Shown here: positions 49,368 to 60,532 of the stretch, piece by piece
Position numbering within the stretch: the first letter of the stretch is position 1
How the letters are laid out: the number at the start of each line of letters is the position of its first letter
From: Haloterrigena alkaliphila
Lineage (GTDB): Archaea; Halobacteriota; Halobacteria; Halobacteriales; Natrialbaceae
Assembly: GCF_017352155.2 (NCBI RefSeq)
Contig: NZ_CP071462.1
Span: 2,170,001-2,234,000, forward strand
Direction of reading: 5' to 3'
Length of the DNA stretch: 64,000 nucleotides
Program-made: the position numbers and the translations under genes
Notes under the pieces: generated by a model
What the model was told of the DNA's origin: nothing
Database searches by the model: none
Seen by the model: the letters and a program-made list of their open reading frames with translations, nothing else

Positions 49368-50580
49368 ACCGCGAGGAGGGGCAACTGGCGACATTATTAT
49401 GGACGCCGTATCGCCGCGCAATGGGGGATAACGCCGAGCGCAATCTGCCGTTCCCCGGGCCCGCGGACCCTTGTCGGTTCCCTAATCGCCCGTTGAAGTC
49501 GGTCTCCATGCGGGCCGATCCCACCGGTATCCCGCCGTTCTCGGTCGCTTTGAGATCCTCTTCTCCTCGGCCGTTCGAACTCGATTTGATATCGCCCTAT
49601 GAAGTTTATCGATATCCTTGGGCACCGGACGAATCACACATCGAATCGGCGGAAGGGGCCGTCAAAGCGGGTGTGAACGGCTTTCGAGGCCCAATTCGAT
49701 ATGCCGCCGTGAGAACCGCGTTCGGACCGCGATCGGGGACGCGCTACGGACGACGCTCGCTACGGGGGCGCTCCGCGACTCGTGATTTCGGACGTAGTCT
49801 CTCAATTCGTCGCGGTCGAGTTTCTCGATCGCCATCGAATGTGCCACTGGGAAGCGGTCCGATCGGCGTCCGGTCAGCGTTCGATGGCGTCCACCCCTCG
49901 ATTCGGATGATCGTTCGGCTGCCTCGAGCCTGGGGATTCGAGGGCGGAACTGGGGGTTGCTCGCTCGCTCTTTTCGGCCGGTTCACACGGATCAGTCCCG
50001 GCTACGACGATCGGTCGGTATCGATAGCGCACGGCCGGGTGAGACGGATCGGTGTCTGTCCGGCTGCAGCCGACGAACTGGACGGTCTCCCGGGCGTGTG
50101 GGAGCGCTCGAGTCGGTATCGACCCATCGCCCCACCCTCCGGCCCTGGTTCACCGTCCTCGAGTCGGTCGACGAGTGCCGTCGGCCCCCACGGAGGTCAC
50201 TACTCGAGCGGCTGTCCCGCAATTCGAATTCGAAGCGGGGCGTCCTGACGCGCGTGTGAGAAAACCAGAGCAGAGGGCGTCTCGAACGTGAGCGATGTGC
50301 GACCGCTGATCGCCGATTGCACTGCGACGATCCGTCACGAACCGCTGTGCGTGTCGCTCGGTCATTGGTCCGAACGTCGCGTTCGAGTTCCGGCGCACAC
50401 GGAACTGCCGTCCGGATCTGGCCGCCTTCTCGGCCTCTCGTGTTCGCGATCGCTACTGATTCGAGCCAGTACGGACCGAGACGGCCGGCTTCGGGGCTGT
50501 GCGACAGTTCCTCGATTCGATCGGAATCGGCCCGAACCGCTCTGCATAAACTACATAGAGCGATACGAAACAGTCGGATC
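49368..50580. other. 1.2-kb region without a convincing gene upstream of the Cdc6-like gene
   Basis: Long open frames occur (for example on the plus strand 49421-50248), but their amino-acid mix (Ser/Arg/Pro) and codon pattern look like shadow frames. A minus-strand frame at 49662-49847 starts well (MAIEKLDRDELRDYV) but loses protein character after about 25 codons; it could be a gene remnant. I do not see the repeated origin boxes expected of a haloarchaeal replication origin. Confidence 0.5.
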
Positions 50581-50582
50581 CG

Positions 50583-50599
50583 TTTCGGAAGTTTCGGAA
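50583..50599 (+). promoter_or_regulatory. Tandem TTTCGGAA boxes before the Cdc6-like gene
   Basis: TTTCGGAA at 50583-50590 and again at 50592-50599, spaced one base apart. They lie immediately upstream of the TATA element. The same octamer recurs at the promoter of the RecA-like gene (51794, 51870). Confidence 0.55.
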
Positions 50600-50610
50600 G
50601 CGGGACGCCA

Positions 50611-50618
50611 TCGTTTAC
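50611..50618 (+). promoter_or_regulatory. TATA box of the Cdc6-like gene
   Basis: TCGTTTAC, centred about 29 nt before the GTG at 50645; it supports that start and a leaderless mRNA. Confidence 0.5.
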
Positions 50619-50644
50619 AACGGACGCCGTCCAACGGAACCGGT

Positions 50645-51664
50645 GTGATCGTCGACGGCCGCGTCCTGCGCGAGGATTTCGTGCCCAGCGAGGTGGTTCA
50701 CCGCCACGACGAGGTGAACCTCCTCTCGGAGTCCCTGGAGCCGCTGCTGTACGATCGGCGGCCCGATCCCGCGTTCCTGTTCGGCCCGACCGGCGTCGGC
50801 AAGACCTGCATCGCCCGCTACACGCTCGAGCAGTTGCGCGAACAGGAACCGACCGTCGACGTCGCCTACGTCAACTGCTGGCAGGAGTACACCCGGTTTC
50901 GCGTACTCTACAGCATCCTCGAGGCGGTCGGACGAACCGTCGACATTCACCGCTCGACGCCGAAGGACGAACTGTTCGATCGACTCCGCCGGACGGACGA
51001 CCAGCCCGTGGTCGCGATTCTGGACGAGGTCGACCAGTTAGAGGAGACGGCCGCGCTGTACGACCTCCACCGGCTGGGCCACGTCTCGCTCGTGTTGATC
51101 GCCAACCGCGAGGAGGAGCTGTTCGCGAGCTTCGACGACCGGGTCCGCTCGCGGCTGCGGGCGGGGACCCGGGTCCGATTCGACCGCTACGGAACCGACG
51201 AACTCGCCGCCATTCTCGCCGAGCGGGCCGACAAGGCCCTCGAGCCCGGGGCCGTTAGCGACGGCCAGTTGCGGACCGTCGCCGACGCCGCGTCAGGGGA
51301 CGCCCGCGTGGGGCTCGGCATCCTTCGATCGGCCGCCCGCCGAGCGGGCCGGCAGGGACTCGAGGCAGTGACCGACGACGTCCTCGAGGCGGCGATTCCT
51401 GACGCCCGGACGGCGATCCGGCGCAAGACCGTCGAGGGGCTGATCGAACACCAGCGGGTACTGTACGACGTCATCGCCGAGGCCGGCGAGATCGAACCCG
51501 GCGACCTCTACGACGAGTACGAGCGCCGGGTGGACGACCCCAAGACCAACCGGACGCTGCGCAACTATCTGACGAAGATGGTCCACTACGACCTGATCGA
51601 AGCCGTCGGCGAGCGCCGCGGACGGACGTACCGCCTCGTCGGCGAGGCGGTCGACCGCGAGTAG
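50645..51664 (+). CDS. Cdc6/Orc1-family AAA+ ATPase (Orc1-like paralogue)
   Basis: Protein of 339 residues starting with GTG at 50645 (VIVDGRVLREDFVPSEVVHR). Walker A is GPTGVGKTCIARY (about residue 47-59), Walker B is VVAILDEVDQL. Sensor 1 is SLVLIANREEEL, and a sensor-2 region and winged helix form the C-terminus (RTLRNYLTKMVHYDLIE). It is shorter than initiators of about 400-450 residues. It precedes a RecA-like/PolB2 operon. In Sulfolobus an Orc1/Cdc6 paralogue acts as a DNA-damage transcription regulator, so a regulatory role is as likely as origin binding; this is inference. Confidence 0.9.
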   Translation: MIVDGRVLREDFVPSEVVHRHDEVNLLSESLEPLLYDRRPDPAFLFGPTGVGKTCIARYTLEQLREQEPTVDVAYVNCWQEYTRFRVLYSILEAVGRTVDIHRSTPKDELFDRLRRTDDQPVVAILDEVDQLEETAALYDLHRLGHVSLVLIANREEELFASFDDRVRSRLRAGTRVRFDRYGTDELAAILAERADKALEPGAVSDGQLRTVADAASGDARVGLGILRSAARRAGRQGLEAVTDDVLEAAIPDARTAIRRKTVEGLIEHQRVLYDVIAEAGEIEPGDLYDEYERRVDDPKTNRTLRNYLTKMVHYDLIEAVGERRGRTYRLVGEAVDRE

Positions 51665-51793
51665 GTGGTTGGGTGGCCCGCGGAGCGCAATGTGGTGGTG
51701 AGTAGGTGGTGGAGTGACCCCGCGGGCACTCGTATCGCCGTCGTCGGAAGTAAATAGTATATTGGCAAATCCGTCAAACTATCCGCCGGCCGG
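51665..51793. other. Spacer with direct repeat between the Cdc6-like and RecA-like genes
   Basis: GTAGGTGGTTGGGTGGCCCG at 51664-51683 is loosely repeated as GTAGGTGGTGGAGTGACCCC at 51702-51721. Then follows an AT-rich stretch (AGTAAATAGTATATTGG at 51750-51766) that could be an extra promoter. Confidence 0.5.
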
Positions 51794-51801
51794 TTTCGGA
51801 A
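51794..51801 (+). promoter_or_regulatory. TTTCGGAA box upstream of the RecA-like gene, distal
   Basis: Single octamer in CCGGTTTCGGAACC, about 100 nt before the TATA element of the RecA-like gene. Part of the set also seen at 50583, 50592 and 51870. Confidence 0.45.
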
Positions 51802-51869
51802 CCGACCCGGAAGGGGCCGAATCGACGGCATCAAGCCCGTGAGCGGCCCGAGTAGCGGATCCGGACCGG

Positions 51870-51886
51870 TTTCGGAATCTCGGAAA
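51870..51886 (+). promoter_or_regulatory. TTTCGGAA box and inverted half-site before the RecA-like gene
   Basis: TTTCGGAA at 51870-51877 followed by TCGGAAA at 51880-51886. Together ACCGGTTTCGGA and TCGGAAACGGT form an imperfect palindrome directly upstream of the TATA element at 51899. Confidence 0.55.
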
Positions 51887-51898
51887 CGGTATTCCGCC

Positions 51899-51905
51899 GC
51901 TTATG
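51899..51905 (+). promoter_or_regulatory. TATA box of the RecA-like/PolB2 operon
   Basis: GCTTATG centred 28 nt before the ATG at 51930; it fits a leaderless start for the operon. Confidence 0.5.
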
Positions 51906-51929
51906 GGCTGTTCGCCCGAGTCTCCGTCC

Positions 51930-52649
51930 ATGCACGAGCCACTCGAGTTCGAACCGGGACTGACGGCGCTCGCCGTGCCGTCGCCGCGATCGGCGATCGT
52001 TCACAGACTGGTCTGTTCGCGGCTGGCCGACGCCGCGACCGCCGACGGCGGCGGCCTCGAAGCGTACTGGATCGACGCGCGGAACACGGCCGCGACGCAG
52101 GTTCTCTACGACTGCACCTCGAGCCCGCGCGCCCTCGAGTCGCTGCGGGTCGCGCGGGCCTTTACGGCCTACCAGCACCACTCGCTGGTCCGGGCGGTGA
52201 CCCGGCGGGCGGGACCCGACGCGTCGCTGATCGTCGCGCCGAACGTCGCCAGCCTCTATCACGACGCCGACCTGCCCGAGTGGGAGCGCGAGGACCTCCT
52301 CGCCGCGTCGCTCGAGACGCTCGCGGAACTGGGTCGCGTGCTCGAGTGTCCCGTCGTGGTGACGAGCGCGGACGACGACCGGGTCGCAACGGTTTCCGAC
52401 TACGCCACCGCGACGATCGAGTGCGTTCGCACGCGGGAGGGGATCCGACTCGAGCGCGCGGACGGCGGCACTGACGCTGCGGACGCCGACGGGAACCGCG
52501 GGACCGTCGTTGACGAAACGGCGGGCTACTGGCACGAGCACTACTGGCAGACGACGATCCCCTACTGGGTCGACCTGTGTGGCGCCGTCGACGCGCCGCT
52601 GTCGGTCGTCGAGGCTCACGACCGCGACCTGCTGGAGGTGAGCGCCTGA
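51930..52649 (+). CDS. RecA-superfamily-like protein without a P-loop, first gene of the polB2 operon
   Basis: Protein of 239 residues with the RecA-core layout. The N-terminal GLTALAVPSPRSAIVHRLVC occupies the Walker A position but lacks the GxxxxGK[T/S] residues. The Walker B position is DASLIVAPNVASLY, without the acidic end. A further strand, ECPVVVTSADDD, follows. It therefore looks like an inactive RadA/RecA paralogue. In archaea PolB2 genes are commonly next to such proteins, analogous to bacterial ImuA. Its TGA overlaps the ATG of the next gene by one base. Confidence 0.75.
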   Translation: MHEPLEFEPGLTALAVPSPRSAIVHRLVCSRLADAATADGGGLEAYWIDARNTAATQVLYDCTSSPRALESLRVARAFTAYQHHSLVRAVTRRAGPDASLIVAPNVASLYHDADLPEWEREDLLAASLETLAELGRVLECPVVVTSADDDRVATVSDYATATIECVRTREGIRLERADGGTDAADADGNRGTVVDETAGYWHEHYWQTTIPYWVDLCGAVDAPLSVVEAHDRDLLEVSA

Positions 52650-52960
52650 TGGGGCGCACCAATCCCACCTACCGCGATTCGCTCCGGCGACTCGAGTCCG
52701 AGTGGGAGCCGATGCGGCGGGCGCTGCGCCGGGAGTATCAGGCGGACTTCGACCGGCTGTTCGATCGCGGTCGGAACTTCGCCGACGCGGCGGGCTACGC
52801 GAACCCGCGGGATCCCGCGCGAGCGCTGTTGCTCTCGCTCGCGCTGGCCCACGAGGTCGAACTGCGCCGGTTACGGGCGGAACTCGAGGCGCGTGCGGAC
52901 GGCGGTAGTGCGGAGAGAGATGTGGAGGGAGATGATCGAGGCGGAGGGGACGGCGAGTGA
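52649..52960 (+). CDS. Small helical protein of the polB2 operon
   Basis: Protein of 103 residues MGRTNPTYRDSLRRLESEWE, followed by a long helix pair (RREYQADFDRLFDRGRNFAD, ARALLLSLALAHEVELRRLR) and an acidic Gly-rich tail. Start and stop overlap both neighbours (TGATG upstream, GTGA downstream), so it is translated with them. It is probably a linker or accessory factor of the polymerase complex. Function unknown. Confidence 0.75.
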   Translation: MGRTNPTYRDSLRRLESEWEPMRRALRREYQADFDRLFDRGRNFADAAGYANPRDPARALLLSLALAHEVELRRLRAELEARADGGSAERDVEGDDRGGGDGE

Positions 52961-55269
52961 GTCCCTACACGTTCGAGTTCGAGGACGGCGCCGTTCGGGA
53001 GTGGTCGCTGACCGATACCGGTGCGGCGCCGACGCTCGTCGAGGACTACACCCCCTCGCTGTTCGTCTCGGGACCCGACGACGCGCTGGCGGACCTGCGA
53101 GCGCGCCTCGATCCCGATCCGAAGGTCGTCGCGACCGCCCGCGATCGGTGGGCGACGGACCTCCACGAGGCTCACGTCGGCGAGCGAAGCCGGCCGCTGC
53201 GAGTCGACTGCGAGCGCGTCGGCGAGATCCGGACGCTCGTCCGCGAGATCCGCGGCGTTCACGAGCGCGGGACGCACGCCCCCGGCACCTTCCGCCTCTA
53301 CGACGTGGACCTCGAGCCCGGCTTCCGCTACTGTCTGGACCGCAGGATCGATCCGACGCCGACCCGCGAGTTGCGGACCCTCCGGCTCGAACTCGACGAT
53401 CCCGCGCTGGCCGACGGTACCGTCGCAGCGCTTCGACTCGAGGGAGAGCCGATCATCGAGACGGCATCGCCCGCCGATGAGTTCGAGATCCTCCGGACGC
53501 TGAATCGACGCCTCGAGCGCGACGATCCGGACGTCCTCGTGGTGAGCCACGGCGACCTGATCCCGCTGCTCGAGCGGCGGGCGTCGGAACTGGGCCTCGA
53601 GGAATTCTCGCTGGGACGATTGCCGGGCTGGACGCAGTTGGCGGGCGAGAACGCCTTCGAGAGCTACGGACGGGTGGGCCACTCGCCGGCGCGGTACCGG
53701 GTTCCCGGCCGGGCGATCGTCGATACGTCGAACAGCTTCCTCTGGAACCAGTCGGGGCTGGCCGGCCTCGAGTACATGGTCGCGAAGACGGGCCGACCCC
53801 TGCAGGAGGCCGCGTGGGGGAGCATCGGCACGCTGTTGACTTCGCGCCAGATTCGGATCGCCCGCGACGACTGGGGCGTCCTCGCGCCGTGGAACAAGTG
53901 GGAACCCGAGCGGTTTTCGGACGTGTCGACGCTGCACGCGGCCGACCGGGGTGGGTTCACGTTCGCCCCCGAGGTCGGGCTCCACGAGGATGTCCACGAG
54001 ATCGACTTCGCGTCGCTGTACCCGCGGATCATCTGCGAGTACGGCGTCAGTCCGGAGACGGTCGACTGCGCCCACGACGCGGGCGCGCTCGAGTGCGACA
54101 GCCATCGCGTCCCGCAACTCGGCTACGAGATCTGCGAGGGCGGGGCCAGGGGAACCGACGACGGCCCCTTCCTGCCGTCCGTCCTCGAGCCCCTCCTGTC
54201 CGATCGCGCCGCGATAAAGGAACGACTCGCCGACGATCCGCCCGAACCCGAGGCGAGCCGACTCCGGGCCGAGTCGGGTGCCATCAAGTGGGTGCTCGTC
54301 TCCTGTTTCGGCTATCAGGGCTACCGGAACGCCAAGTACGGCCGCATCGAGTGCCACGAGGCGATCAACGCCTACGCCCGCGACATCGCGCTGACCGCCA
54401 AGGGGCGACTCGAGGACGCGGGCTGGCGGATCGTCCACGGCATCGTCGACAGCCTCTGGGTGACGCCGCGCGAGGGCGTCGATCCGGAGCCCCTGGCGGA
54501 CGTGATCGCCGACATCGGCGAGCGGGTCGGGATCCCCCTCGAGCACGACGGCAGCTACGAGTGGGTCTGTTTCGTGCCGTTGCGAGAGTCGATCCCGAGC
54601 GCGGACGGCGCTGCATCGGAGCCGGCGGACGTGAGCGCGGCGACGGCGAACGCGGGTCGGTCGGCGACGGCCCCCGATTCCGCGCCAGCAGGCGAGCTCA
54701 ACTCCGCGCCAGCGGGCGCGCTCACCAAATACTTCGGCAAGCGCGAGTCGGGCCAGTACAAGTTTCGGGGCATCGAACTGCGCCAGCGCTCGACCCCTGA
54801 GTACGTCGCCGAGAGCCAGCGGGCGTTCGTCGCGGCCCTCGACCGGGAGCGCGACCCCGCCGCCGTCTGCGACGTCCTCGAGCGGCGACTCGGGGCGCTC
54901 CGGCGGGGCGAGGTCGATCCCGCCGCCCTCGAGATCACGAAGCGCGTCTCGAAACCGCTGTCGGCGTACCACCGGCGGACCAGAACCGTCGCGGCCCTCG
55001 AGCGCTACGAGCGGCGGGGCGTCGACCGCCGGCCCGGCCAGTCGGTCCGCTACCTCGTTGCGGACGACGACGCTCGCGGGCCCGAGCGCGTTCGACTGCC
55101 GTTCGAGGCGAACGCGGCCGCGGGTCTCGAGTACGACGCCGCGTTCTACGCGACCCTGCTCGTCCGCGCCTGCGAGAGCGTCGTCTCGCCGCTGGGCTGG
55201 GATCGCTCGCGGATCCGCCGGCACCTGCGCGAAGGACGGACGGTGCGACTGTCGGCGTTCGTCGACTGA
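52957..55269 (+). CDS. polB2: B-family DNA polymerase of the PolB2 type with altered catalytic motifs
   Basis: Protein of 770 residues starting with GTG at 52957. Motif A is intact: DFASLYPRII with Asp350. Motif B is AIKWVLVSCFGYQGYRNAKY; the usual NSxYG is replaced by VSCFGY. Motif C reads HGIVDSLWV (Asp498), so DTD is changed to IVD with only the second Asp kept. The exonuclease part lacks the DxE and NxxxFD signatures (near SHGDLIPLLE). A Ser/Ala-rich linker at about 550-590 precedes the thumb. In Sulfolobus PolB2/Dpo2 promotes damage-induced mutagenesis, so a specialised role is likely. Confidence 0.9.
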   Translation: MSPYTFEFEDGAVREWSLTDTGAAPTLVEDYTPSLFVSGPDDALADLRARLDPDPKVVATARDRWATDLHEAHVGERSRPLRVDCERVGEIRTLVREIRGVHERGTHAPGTFRLYDVDLEPGFRYCLDRRIDPTPTRELRTLRLELDDPALADGTVAALRLEGEPIIETASPADEFEILRTLNRRLERDDPDVLVVSHGDLIPLLERRASELGLEEFSLGRLPGWTQLAGENAFESYGRVGHSPARYRVPGRAIVDTSNSFLWNQSGLAGLEYMVAKTGRPLQEAAWGSIGTLLTSRQIRIARDDWGVLAPWNKWEPERFSDVSTLHAADRGGFTFAPEVGLHEDVHEIDFASLYPRIICEYGVSPETVDCAHDAGALECDSHRVPQLGYEICEGGARGTDDGPFLPSVLEPLLSDRAAIKERLADDPPEPEASRLRAESGAIKWVLVSCFGYQGYRNAKYGRIECHEAINAYARDIALTAKGRLEDAGWRIVHGIVDSLWVTPREGVDPEPLADVIADIGERVGIPLEHDGSYEWVCFVPLRESIPSADGAASEPADVSAATANAGRSATAPDSAPAGELNSAPAGALTKYFGKRESGQYKFRGIELRQRSTPEYVAESQRAFVAALDRERDPAAVCDVLERRLGALRRGEVDPAALEITKRVSKPLSAYHRRTRTVAALERYERRGVDRRPGQSVRYLVADDDARGPERVRLPFEANAAAGLEYDAAFYATLLVRACESVVSPLGWDRSRIRRHLREGRTVRLSAFVD

Positions 55270-55439: not shown

Positions 55440-55843
55440 GTCGCCCAACTGGACCACCGAGGGCGCCTCGCGGACGTGCTGACGGAGCTGGAGATGCGGA
55501 TCGCGGAGACCGACGTCGAGATCACCGTCGTTCCGCTCCCACGGTCTACGGCGATTCGGGACGGCTCAGACGGGTGTTCCAGAACCGGCTGGACAACCCG
55601 GTTACATATGCTGGCGAAGACACCCCACGTATATCCGTGTTCGCGGATAAACGTGGACAAGAGTGGACGATTTCAGCTTGCGAACGGGGGATCGGGACCG
55701 ATCCGGCGGACGCGGATCGCATCTATCAGGTGTTCGACCGGCTCCACAGCATCGAGGAGTACGAGGGGTCGACGTTCTCCGTGACGCTGCCGGCGCCGCC
55801 GGACGCCCAACCCGCGACTGGACCCACGACCGACCATGAGTGA
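55440..55843 (+). pseudogene. Truncated, frameshifted histidine kinase ATPase-domain remnant
   Basis: The first part (LADVLTELEMRIAETDVEIT) is in one frame. A base is lost near 55543, and the sequence continues in another frame: VYGDSGRLRRVFQNRLDNPV, then DRIYQVFDRLHSIEEYEG, then [11 protein letters not shown]. The Gly-rich G2 box of the ATPase (GTGIGLALC-type, about 30 codons) is missing between EYEG and STFSV. The sensor and phospho-acceptor parts are also absent. Its last stop overlaps the start of the response regulator by eight bases, showing the ancestral kinase-regulator operon. Confidence 0.8.
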
Positions 55844-56297
55844 TTCGAGACAGTTCAAACCGGAGCCAGCACAGATACTGTTAGTCGAGGACAATCCCGG
55901 GGACGTCCGACTGACCGAAGAAGCGTTCAAACAGGGCCGCATCGAGAACGACCTCCACGTCGTCTCGGACGGCAACGAAGCGCTGGAGTTCCTCTACCAG
56001 CGCGGCGAGTACGAGGACGCGCCGCGACCGGACCTCATCCTGCTCGACCTCAACCTGCCGCGGAAGGACGGCGAGGACGTCCTCGAGGAACTCAAGGGGG
56101 ACTCGGAGCTACGATCGATTCCGGTGATCGTGCTGACGAGTTCGCGGGCCGAGGAAGACGTCGTCAGGTCGTACGAACTCCACGCCAACGCCTACCTGAC
56201 GAAGCCGGTCGATCCGGACGACTTCATCGAGACGGTCCGGGCCTTCGAGAAGTTCTGGTTCTCCGTCGTCCGACTCCCGCCGGAAGGTGAGCAATAA
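55836..56297 (+). CDS. Single-domain response regulator (CheY/Rcp1-like)
   Basis: Protein of 153 residues that is one receiver domain. The acid pocket is VEDN, the phospho-acceptor is D71 in ILLDLNLP, and Thr/Ser plus Lys are in [11 protein letters not shown] and [10 protein letters not shown]. The RxVxDGxEALEFL region ([16 protein letters not shown]) marks the Rcp1-like group that pairs with phytochrome-like or multi-sensor kinases. The cognate kinase directly upstream is a pseudogene, so it must be served by another kinase. The TAA overlaps the next ATG. Confidence 0.92.
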
Positions 56298-57979
56298 TGA
56301 GCGAGACGGACACGCAGGCCGACGCGAGCGCCGACGCCGACACGCTGGAGGTCCTCCTCATCGAGGACAATCCGGGTGACGCGCGGCTGATCCAGGAGAT
56401 GCTCCGGGACACCGAGGAACTCGCCCAGCGGGTCAGCTCCGACGAGTCGGCGGGACGAACGCCCGAGATCACCCGCGAGAACCGACTCGAGGACGGGTTG
56501 ACGTCCCTCGAGGCGACGGCCGCCGACGTCGTTCTGCTCGACCTGAACCTCCCCGACAGCGAGGGGTTGGAGACCCTCGACACGGTCCACGCCGAGAGCG
56601 AGGAGACGCCGATCGTCGTGCTGACCGGCGTCCGCGACCAGCAGGTCGGCGTGCAGGCGATCCAGCGGGGCGCACAGGACTTCCTCGTCAAGGACGAGGT
56701 GACCAGCGAGCTGCTCGTGCGGACGATCCACCACGCGATCGAACGGGCCCGACAGGAACGGGAACGCCGTCGCCAGCGCGAGCAACTCGAGGCGCTCAAC
56801 CGGCTCAACCGGATCGGCCACGACATCACCCACGCGGTGATCACGACCGAGACGCGAGCGGACCTCGAGCAACGGGTCTGCGACCGCCTCGCCGAGTCCG
56901 ACGCCTACCGATTCGCGTGGATCGGCGGCGTCAACCCCGGTAGCGATCGCGTGGTACCGAAGGCGGCCGCGGGCGCCGAGGACGGCTATCTCGACGACGT
57001 CGAGGTTTCCGTCGACGAGGACGACGTGACCGGGCAGGGACCGACCGGGACGGCGATCCGGACGGGTTCGGTGCAGGTGATGAGCGACGCGCAATCGGAC
57101 CCCGAGTTCGAGCCGTGGCGCGAGGAGGCGCTCGAGCGCGGCTATCACTCGGCTGCAGCGATCCCCATCATGCACGAGGACCTCGTCTACGGCGTGTTGA
57201 ACGTCTACTCCGAGTCGCCGCGGGCGTTCGACGGGCCGGAGACGACGATCCTCGCCCGGATCGGCGACGTCATCGCCCACGCGATCACCGCGATCGAGCG
57301 TAAGGACGCGCTGGTCAGCGACGCCGTCATCGAACTCGAGTTCCGCGTCGAGGAACTGGCGCAGCCGCTGATCCGGCTGTCGTCCGAGGAGGAGTGTACG
57401 ATCCAGTTCGAACAACTGATCCGCGGCGACGAGACGCTGCTCGCCTACGGATCGGCGGAGGGCGTCGATCAGGAGACCTTCGAGGAGACCATCGCGGAGA
57501 CCGAGGGCTTCGGCGAGGTCCGGTTCCTCGCCGTCAGACGCGACGAGTTCGAGTTCGAACTCGTGGCGCCGGCCGCGGTCTCGATGTTCGAGACCATCGC
57601 GACCCACGGCGGCCGCGTTCAGTCCGCGCGGATCGCCGACGGCGAGTTCCGATTCGTCGTCGAACTCCCGCGCGGCCGGGACACCCGGCAGATGATCGAA
57701 CTCATCAAGGACCAGCGCGACGACGTCACCTACCTCGCCCAGCGGACCCGCGAGCGCGGCGAGCGCAGCGATTCGGGAACGACGTCGGTTCTCGAGGACG
57801 ACCTCACCGACAAGCAGCGAGCGGCCCTCGAGACGGCTTACTTCGCGGGCTACTTCGACTGGCCCCGCGAGAGCACCGGCGAGGAGATCTCCGAGCGACT
57901 CGGGATCGCGCCGGCGACCTTCAACCAGCACCTCCGGACCGCCGAGCGGAAGTTCTTCGATTCGGTGATCGGCGAGTGA
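56297..57979 (+). CDS. REC-GAF-BAT-HTH_10 response regulator
   Basis: Protein of 560 residues. The receiver is at about 15-150 with D82 in VVLLDLNLPDSEG. A helical linker (ERARQERERRRQREQLEALN) follows, then GAF at about 170-330, then the bacterioopsin-activator domain at about 340-470. The C-terminal helix-turn-helix is LTDKQRAALETAYFAGYFDW followed by ISERLGIAPATFNQHLRTAE. It shares the TAATG overlap with the response regulator. A kinase acting on the receiver would be expected; the neighbouring one is broken. Confidence 0.9.
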   Translation: MSETDTQADASADADTLEVLLIEDNPGDARLIQEMLRDTEELAQRVSSDESAGRTPEITRENRLEDGLTSLEATAADVVLLDLNLPDSEGLETLDTVHAESEETPIVVLTGVRDQQVGVQAIQRGAQDFLVKDEVTSELLVRTIHHAIERARQERERRRQREQLEALNRLNRIGHDITHAVITTETRADLEQRVCDRLAESDAYRFAWIGGVNPGSDRVVPKAAAGAEDGYLDDVEVSVDEDDVTGQGPTGTAIRTGSVQVMSDAQSDPEFEPWREEALERGYHSAAAIPIMHEDLVYGVLNVYSESPRAFDGPETTILARIGDVIAHAITAIERKDALVSDAVIELEFRVEELAQPLIRLSSEEECTIQFEQLIRGDETLLAYGSAEGVDQETFEETIAETEGFGEVRFLAVRRDEFEFELVAPAAVSMFETIATHGGRVQSARIADGEFRFVVELPRGRDTRQMIELIKDQRDDVTYLAQRTRERGERSDSGTTSVLEDDLTDKQRAALETAYFAGYFDWPRESTGEEISERLGIAPATFNQHLRTAERKFFDSVIGE

Positions 57980-58774: not shown

Positions 58775-60532
58775 CTACTTCTCTTCGACGTGGCGGATCT
58801 CGCAGGCGATGCCGCGGCTGCTCTCGCACATTTCGCGGCCGAACATCTCGGCGCGGCCGATAGCGAAGGCCGACGGCCCCTCGACGACGACCTCGTCGCC
58901 GACTCGGATCTCGTCGTCGGCGTCGACGACGCCCGGCGCGAGCACGCTGCCGTGGGGGACGAAGCCGTCGATTTCCACGCGCTTCGCGGGGGCGTCGCTC
59001 TCGACCCAGCGTCGGGCGCCCTCGAGCGTGAACGAGAGCGTGCCGTACTGGGGGACCATCGTCGCCAGCTGGGTCTCCTCGCTGTCCCGAACCTGGATCT
59101 TCGGGTAGCGACTGGTGGTCTGGATATCTTCGAAGAGGTCGTCGCCGGCGCCGTCGCCGAGCAGGTAGTCCGCGATGGCGCGGACGGTGTTGTGCTCGCG
59201 CTCGCGCTTGGAGTACTTCAGTTCGCCATCCAGCGCCGTTCCGAGATTCGAGAGCGACTCGTCGTCGGTCGGGTGACCGCCCTCGGGAACCGTGTACGTG
59301 ATGTCGAGGTCGAGGGCCTCCTCGACGCGGGAGACGATGTCGCGGTAGCCCTCGTCGGGGACGTGAGCGATGATCTCGGGGTAGTCGTTTCGCTCGAGGT
59401 AGCGCCGAAGGACCTCGCTGACGAACTGCTTCTCGTCTTCGGACCACCGTCCCGTCACGACGGTGTCGTAGTGCTGGGCCGGGTAGGTCGTCTCGAGTTC
59501 CTGCGGGACGACGCCGATGGGGCTGGTCATCGAGACGAGGTGGGCGCGCCACTGGATGACGTCGTGGAACTGGCCGTGGCTCTGGGACTCGCTGTAGGGT
59601 TTCGTCGCCGAGCAGGGCACCAGTACCAGCGGATTTTTGAACCGGTTGCGATAGCGCGTGGTCACGCGATCGGCGAAGCGCTGAATCTCGACCCGGCGGA
59701 GGGTGTCCTCGGTCGCCGCGTTGATCTGGGCGTCCCGCAGGATGGGCGTGCGCTCCTCGAGGTAGCTCCACTGCGAATCCAGTTCGCGCACGGCGGCGGT
59801 GAGCCACTGGTCGTGGCGGGCCTGCCCCTCGACGTAGTCCCGCAGACGGCCGTCGCGGATGCGCCGGCGGACGATCCCCAGTTCGGCCGCCAGGGCGTTT
59901 CGGTTGTGTTCGGCGCAGTCCTCGCGGGTGAACTCCTCGCGGGGCTGCTGGCAGGCCGGACAGGAGCAGGGGAGTTCCTCGAGGTCCTCGAGGAAGTACG
60001 CCTCGTCGGTGGTGAGATAGCGCCCTTCAGTCCCTTTCACGACCGCGGCGGTCGCGTCGAAGAGGTCGACGCCGGCGTAGGCCAGCACGGCGACGTTGCG
60101 CGGCGTGGCGACCCCCGAGAAGTAGAGCGCGGTGTCGGCCGGAATCGCTTCGCGGACGTTCACGACGGCCTCGACGAGCGCCGCGCCGTGGCCCGTGATC
60201 GACTGGACGTCCGAGACGGCGTAGGCGTCCGTCCCCTGGTCGTCGGCGTCCTCACTCGAGACGACCGCGACGCTGGGGTAGTCGACGTCGGGGTGGTCGA
60301 CCGCGAAAGACTCCCGGACCTCGTCGGTGGTGCCGCCGGGGAACGCCCGGTGGGGGAGGACCGTCAGATGCGAGTCGTCGCCCTCGGGGACCTCCCGCTC
60401 GGCGCTCCACAGCGACCCCGCGTCCTCGAGGACGTCGTCGACGAGCGCGGGGGTCGTCACGGGCGACTCGAGGCGGAGTTCGCCCGCGCGAGCGGCCCCG
60501 TCGCGCTCGTGGACTTCGAAGTAGTCGGTCAT
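58775..60532 (-). CDS. arcS: Archaeosine synthase (ArcS)
   Basis: Protein of 585 residues. The TGT-like N-terminus (EVHERDGAARAGELRLESPV, then FSGVATPRNVAVLAYAGVDL) is followed by the zinc-type CSCPAC region. The ArcS-specific core LVLVPCSATKPYSES, where PCSATKPY is the amino-transfer motif, comes at about residue 305. A C-terminal PUA domain (about 510-585, VSG-type SVLAPGVVDADDEIRVGDEV) binds tRNA. It attaches lysine to preQ0-tRNA before RaSEA cleaves it. ATG at 60532. Confidence 0.9.
   Translation of the reverse strand: MTDYFEVHERDGAARAGELRLESPVTTPALVDDVLEDAGSLWSAEREVPEGDDSHLTVLPHRAFPGGTTDEVRESFAVDHPDVDYPSVAVVSSEDADDQGTDAYAVSDVQSITGHGAALVEAVVNVREAIPADTALYFSGVATPRNVAVLAYAGVDLFDATAAVVKGTEGRYLTTDEAYFLEDLEELPCSCPACQQPREEFTREDCAEHNRNALAAELGIVRRRIRDGRLRDYVEGQARHDQWLTAAVRELDSQWSYLEERTPILRDAQINAATEDTLRRVEIQRFADRVTTRYRNRFKNPLVLVPCSATKPYSESQSHGQFHDVIQWRAHLVSMTSPIGVVPQELETTYPAQHYDTVVTGRWSEDEKQFVSEVLRRYLERNDYPEIIAHVPDEGYRDIVSRVEEALDLDITYTVPEGGHPTDDESLSNLGTALDGELKYSKREREHNTVRAIADYLLGDGAGDDLFEDIQTTSRYPKIQVRDSEETQLATMVPQYGTLSFTLEGARRWVESDAPAKRVEIDGFVPHGSVLAPGVVDADDEIRVGDEVVVEGPSAFAIGRAEMFGREMCESSRGIACEIRHVEEK

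Follow-up and report, generated by a model that had tools for sequence, protein, structure and literature searches.

The polB2 locus of Haloterrigena alkaliphila

A stretch of 64,000 nucleotides from Haloterrigena alkaliphila (contig NZ_CP071462.1, positions 2,170,001 to 2,234,000), hereafter the window, carries four co-directional genes in the order orc, iRadA, PPB2, polB2 on its forward strand. The last three are the known archaeal PolB2 mutasome operon, iRadA-PPB2-PolB2, and an ordinary member of that family. What appears to be new in this locus is a predicted promoter element common to iRadA and orc, the latter encoding an Orc1/Cdc6 paralogue. The features of the locus are listed below, with coordinates counted from the first base of the window.

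50579..50618, + strand: putative operator 1, orc promoter, CGGAA-N4-CGGAA with a TATA-like TTTACA at 50614 (model R1, see below)
50645..51664, + strand: Orc1/Cdc6 paralogue of a non-initiator-like clade, 339 residues (TIGR02928, Walker A/B, tree)
51794..51809, + strand: putative extra half-site (GTTTCGGAACCGACCCG) before iRadA (R1 match weak, E=0.16)
51865..51906, + strand: putative operator 2, iRadA-PPB2-polB2 promoter, CGGAA-N3-CGGAAAC with a TATA-like CTTATG at 51900 (R1)
51930..52649, + strand: iRadA, RAD51/RadA core lacking Walker A, 239 residues (AlphaFold2, Foldseek, alignment)
52649..52960, + strand: PPB2, small helical protein resembling arCOG07300, 103 residues (N-terminus, model, phrog_30126)
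52957..55269, + strand: PolB2 DNA polymerase, 770 residues (NF004418, motif A, motif C, exonuclease loss)

The initial annotation described four genes in one direction, the last three overlapping by one and four bases, and the sequence bears this out: base 52649 is common to the iRadA TGA and the PPB2 ATG, and the PolB2 GTG at 52957 forms a four-base overlap with the PPB2 stop. The start of the Cdc6-like gene, placed there at 50583, had to be moved to a conserved GTG at 50645 (MIVDGRVLREDF); position 50583 is no start codon and falls inside the promoter element 50579-50618. A gap of 265 bp separates the end of orc (51664) from the iRadA start, and orc is a transcription unit separate from iRadA-PPB2-polB2.

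A promoter element shared by orc and the polymerase operon

The element is composed of two CGGAA half-sites 8-9 bp apart, at a fixed distance from the TATA box, which itself precedes the start codon by about 28-30 nt. In the orc and iRadA promoters of about 20 relatives, its consensus reads TCGGAA-N2/3-TCGGAAAC, followed after about 10 bases by a TATA-like CTTAT/TTTA. A 47-nt sequence-only model of the element (R1), whose E-values are rough, detected exactly two significant sites across the 64-kb window, before orc and before iRadA only. Operator 1 scored 31.7 bits (E=5.9e-9 in the window), was also the best match genome-wide (E=3.8e-7) and has its TATA-like sequence 31 nt before the GTG, while operator 2 scored 20.4 bits (E=2.4e-5 in the window), with its TATA-like element 30 nt before the ATG. 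Extra upstream copies of the half-site, like that at 51794..51809, were also seen in relatives.

Expectation-maximisation recovered the element in 72 of 111 orc and iRadA promoter regions and in none of 155 coding control stretches. Circularity was removed by cross-training between the two promoter sets: when only iRadA promoters were used to build the matrix, 24 of 34 orc promoters exceeded the highest score among 680 shuffles, and the reverse training identified 38 of 76 iRadA promoters. The distance from the TATA-like TTA to the start codon has a mode of 28 nt for orc and iRadA alike, which is the expectation for leaderless haloarchaeal promoters. Overall, the element was found on 93 of 146 haloarchaeal iRadA promoters (74/123 after removal of near-copies).

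A separate R1 search of 80 named loci, a set overlapping the training loci in some genomes, returned 87 matches, 86 of them on the operon strand. These matches precede iRadA, orc, or polB2 itself where the polymerase gene forms a separate unit, with an element of its own directly before the detached polB2 in, for instance, Halosimplex salinum (L382), Halobellus captivus (L392) and Halarchaeum (L400). At seven loci (L382, L392, L393, L398, L400, L407 and L409), other sequence lies between iRadA-PPB2 and polB2, and an element stands before each unit. Several operator-like matches were discarded, one at 960591 lying inside a coding frame and two others (L184 and L185) not being promoters.

A second promoter class carrying the UV-B motif

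The motif TTTCACTTTCA was described in the ultraviolet-B (UV-B)-induced Halobacterium promoters of radA1, top6B, vng17 and vng280 (Boubriak and colleagues, PMC2556686). With at most one mismatch, it occurs on 25 of the 53 iRadA promoters that lack the CGGAA element and on 0 of the 93 that carry it (Fisher 1e-13; 1.6e-10 after near-copy removal); the reverse-strand control gave 0/76. The 146 iRadA promoters can thus be divided into 93 with the element, 25 with TTTCACTTTCA, none with both and 28 with neither. A neighbouring orc accompanies 62 of the 93 element loci (49/74 once near-copies are removed) and none of the 25 UV-motif loci. In H. alkaliphila itself, three exact TTTCACTTTCA sites (L410, L411 and L412) all lie just before start codons, namely those of radA and of two uncharacterised genes. 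Judged from their promoters, haloarchaeal polB2 operons tend to use either the UV-B-linked motif or the Orc-linked element, and this two-class pattern is the best sequence evidence for a damage-responsive module.

Distribution of the element across genomes

The three best sites in the H. alkaliphila genome fall on the orc promoter, a stand-alone PPB2 gene and the iRadA promoter. Strong sites in relatives precede orc, iRadA, second iRadA copies and stand-alone PPB2 genes. The H. alkaliphila PPB2-like gene that stands alone, with a CGGAA element before it, is located at G000:C1:1655029 (L413:7093-7344), and similar arrangements occur in L163, L175 and L176. In G077, a genome in which polB2 has no orc neighbour, an orc orthologue is encoded on a different contig, and the top-ranking site of the genome is found immediately upstream of it. 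Among 20 family members lacking polB2, the operator was present in 9/9 genomes with an orc orthologue and in 2/11 without; two genomes, G004 and G119, have an operator without an intact orc orthologue. One stretch of plasmid pJ7-1 of Natrinema sp. J7-2 (L414) comprises orc, iRadA-PPB2-polB2 and a gene for a SRAP-type SOS response-associated peptidase; weaker element matches are found there at the orc and iRadA promoters, and a further match upstream of orc is on the other strand.

The element also precedes twelve SNJ2-type integrase operons, several of which share a leader with a strong hairpin. This hairpin leader, between the element and the first open reading frame (ACCGACGGAC...GTCCGCGGTCCC), was observed in L161, L166, L167, L168, L174, L179, L180 and L413:17745-17870, the H. 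alkaliphila copy having a folding energy of -50.5 kcal/mol (z=-2.9). H. alkaliphila contains, outside the window, a pleolipovirus-type provirus at G000:C1 about 1.657-1.667 Mb (L413 9372-19145), encoding a spike protein 42% identical to HRPV-2 VP5, an HTH regulator and an integrase. A weaker CGGAA element (L413:17704) stands before the integrase leader, and the stand-alone PPB2 gene with its element lies about 10 kb from this integrase element. Six halovirus stretches with related Orcs had no R1 site. The exact pattern TCGGAANNNTCGGAAAC matched viral contigs 120 times; none of the 80 matches scanned reached the TATA end of the model, and they were taken as chance.

The Orc paralogue and the mutasome proteins

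The orc product matches TIGR02928 with 194 bits (cut-off 181), has intact Walker A (GPTGVGKT) and Walker B (LDEVD) motifs, and has Sso Orc1-1 (2qby_A, E=1.4e-23) as its best relative in the PDB. In a tree comprising no Sulfolobus Orc1-2 sequence, the 7 other clear Orcs of the H. alkaliphila genome were grouped beyond a 100/99 branch from the window Orc, and the polB2-linked Orcs formed one group (88/98) next to Orcs of temperate haloviruses, including SNJ2, ChaoS9 and BJ1. Orcs of the viral-type clade that adjoin polB2 (L034 and L093) are not accompanied by the element.

PolB2 scored 793 bits against NF004418 (cut-off 692). Its motif A (DFASLYP) is intact; motif C reads HGIVDS, with IVD for DTD, so that the first Asp of DxD is replaced, and is invariant in 16 haloarchaeal PolB2. 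Alignment to 6wya indicated that the exonuclease site is lost, Exo DIE and FD both being absent. iRadA gave only a faint profile match to RadB (E=0.006), and its AlphaFold2 model (predicted local distance difference test score, pLDDT, 80) retrieved DMC1, RadA and RAD51 from the PDB by Foldseek (E about 1e-9). The predicted fold is that of the RAD51/DMC1/RadA core. The P-loop position reads PSPRSAIVHR, and a GKT was found in 0/17 homologues in the alignment; this RadA core devoid of Walker A and of an N-terminal domain is what characterises a mutasome partner. PPB2 matched no Pfam family and had no match in the phage collection; it matched the virus protein family phrog_30126 (E=1.3e-24). It is predicted to form three helices (pLDDT 79), has a conserved N-terminus of the MGRTNPTYRD type and is present in 75/78 loci. 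The distribution of polB2 is patchy, with 193 of 292 genomes positive and 3 sampled genomes of the same genus negative, and plasmid copies are many (99 plasmid records).

These analyses agree with the initial annotation in several respects, namely an altered motif C and no visible exonuclease in PolB2, a RecA-like protein without Walker A, and a small helical protein encoded between the two. It had also made its proposal depend on the Cdc6-like gene being linked to polB2 in a conserved way, and such linkage, with an orc of this family, was found at the 62 element-bearing loci mentioned above. The tie between Orc and the mutasome is firmer from the shared promoter element than from adjacency.

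Downstream of polB2, the window encodes a response regulator and then a GAF/BAT/HTH_10 regulator that itself contains a receiver domain (55836-57979). The archaeosine synthase ArcS (NF040592, 847 bits) is encoded on the opposite strand at 58775-60532.

Comparison with known systems

The association of PolB2 with an inactivated RadA and arCOG07300, with arORC2 nearby in many euryarchaea, was described in 2014 and a link to replication was suggested (PMC4104785). More recently, in 2025, the complex was modelled, and orc1/cdc6 was found to be enriched beside archaeal polB2 and lexA beside bacterial polB2 (PMC11791011). The initial annotation had presented the locus as uniting the PolB2 set with a Cdc6-like partner: its reading of a module was right, but since the three-gene operon and its arORC2/orc1 neighbour had been published, the union itself is not new. 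The H. alkaliphila locus has the same three proteins in the order iRadA-PPB2-PolB2, the same lost motifs and the orc neighbour known from euryarchaea. The promoter element, the regulon and the provirus link are absent from both reports, and the text of PMC11791011 never mentions promoters. None of the open-licence papers that were found reports the shared element, its occurrence before provirus integrases or its mutual exclusion with the UV-B motif, and all three are apparently new.

In Sulfolobus, PolB2 (Dpo2) is damage-inducible, mutagenic and needed for targeted damage-induced mutagenesis (PMC7390963). The damage response there is under the control of Orc1-2, which binds an ANTTTC element in the promoter of its own gene and in further ones (PMC9738581). 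The haloarchaeal Orc resembles Orc1-2 as an AAA+ Orc paralogue with intact Walker A/B motifs, and PolB2 is among the damage-induced genes of Sulfolobus; a further likeness, at the level of sequence, is an element on its own promoter and on those of damage genes. The systems differ in that the haloarchaeal element consists of directly repeated CGGAA in a fixed position relative to the TATA box, orc is linked to polB2, and the targets are very few, with provirus integrases among them. An ANTTTC-like ACTTTC occurs in the other, UV-motif promoter class. The Halobacterium motif TTTCACTTTCA likewise stands about 50 bases before the start codon, on the 25 iRadA promoters and before radA of H. alkaliphila, but never together with the CGGAA operator and without an Orc neighbour.

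Earlier studies of archaeal UV responses reported no coordinated SOS-like response (PMC2556686). The proposed likeness to the bacterial SOS system (LexA with UmuDC or ImuA-ImuB-DnaE2) lies in an autoregulated controller, a mutagenic polymerase with a RecA-like partner, and prophages using the signal. Controller and operator differ, the linked controller here being an Orc AAA+ protein; none of ten neighbourhood proteins scanned was LexA-like. The polymerase belongs to family B, unlike the C-family DnaE2 and the Y-family ImuB, and the operon has no Y-family gene.

A candidate damage-responsive regulon

We favour the view, with a probability of roughly two-thirds, that the locus is a mutasome operon with a dedicated Orc regulator, which binds a shared operator and couples translesion synthesis to DNA damage, the operator having also been acquired by PPB2 genes and provirus integrases. 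The genes, the shared operator with its fixed geometry, its conservation and target set, and the mutual exclusion with the UV-B motif are established at the level of sequence. In its own promoter and in that of the mutasome, the Orc paralogue would bind TCGGAA-N2/3-TCGGAAAC just upstream of the transcription factor B (TFB) recognition element (BRE) and TATA box. The position upstream of the TATA box and the Sulfolobus precedent suggest that it would act by activation, not repression. DNA damage would be the signal, to which error-prone translesion synthesis would be coupled. By analogy with the model for Sulfolobus, iRadA and PPB2 would hold PolB2 in a complex for translesion synthesis, a function deduced from that of Sulfolobus PolB2. 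The same operator would have been acquired by stand-alone PPB2 genes and by the integrase promoters of SNJ2-like (pleolipovirus) proviruses, whose excision would then follow the same signal as the mutasome. Excision of SNJ2, which encodes its own Orc, is induced by mitomycin C (PMC13107129).

Several observations weigh against this view. SNJ2, the virus with a known mitomycin C induction, has no R1 site, and the conserved core is the CGGAA repeat rather than the ANTTTC hexamer. The co-occurrence test in 20 genomes is partly trivial, most of its sites, six in all, being on the orc promoter itself. Related genomes are not independent samples, and several genomes (e.g., G251, G175 and G277) have an orc orthologue without a clear operator of its own. 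Furthermore, 31 of the 93 operator loci have no orc inside the fetched stretch. Together with the operators of G004 and G119 and the position of the element right next to the TATA box, to which TFB binds, these loci would fit a real element bound by some other conserved regulator or serving as a special TFB/BRE element, with Orc as a fellow target. We regard this alternative as rather unlikely: the presence of orc and that of the operator coincide in polB2-lacking genomes, the targets include orc itself, DNA binding by Orc proteins is specific, and the element is missing where adjacent Orcs are of the viral-type clade.

Two other explanations were considered. Were the operon a passenger of mobile elements, PolB2 and PPB2 would aid virus or plasmid replication and not damage tolerance of the host. 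Such a role might account for the patchy distribution and the plasmid records, the membership of PPB2 in a virus protein family, the operator common to provirus integrases, and the temperate haloviruses as holders of the nearest Orc relatives. It seems improbable, as in the UV-B class this operon is preceded by a promoter motif of the host damage response that is elsewhere seen at radA, and Sulfolobus PolB2 is required for damage-induced mutagenesis (PMC7390963). The Orc could also be a replication initiator, with the CGGAA repeats serving as origin recognition boxes (ORBs); the mutasome would then adjoin an origin either fortuitously or to assist replication restart. In favour of this, the family carries an initiator annotation, and GGAAAC resembles ORB half-sites. 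A replication link was the suggestion made in 2014 (PMC4104785). Yet the two significant sites of the window are single promoter-locked copies at a fixed distance from TATA and start, 86 of 87 sites lie on the coding strand, sites also precede dispersed PPB2 and integrase genes, and the window Orc is set apart from the other Orcs of the genome, all of which makes an origin very improbable.

Beyond a dedicated Orc regulator of the mutasome, a wider proposal, to which we give even odds, is that of an SOS-like haloarchaeal regulon in which an Orc paralogue, sister to the Orcs of temperate viruses, replaces LexA and controls its own gene, the mutasome and provirus integrases via one operator. It would run parallel to the TTTCACTTTCA (radA) circuit, with polB2 operons having been switched between both. 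With its exact sequence, a conserved operator that connects a mutagenic polymerase and provirus integrases with an Orc paralogue is a concrete SOS-like candidate. The idea is testable at once, because orc and the mutasome are present on pJ7-1 of Natrinema sp. J7-2, a relative of the SNJ2 host J7-1. If true, it would mean that a family of replication initiators has been repeatedly recruited as controllers of the damage response in archaea.

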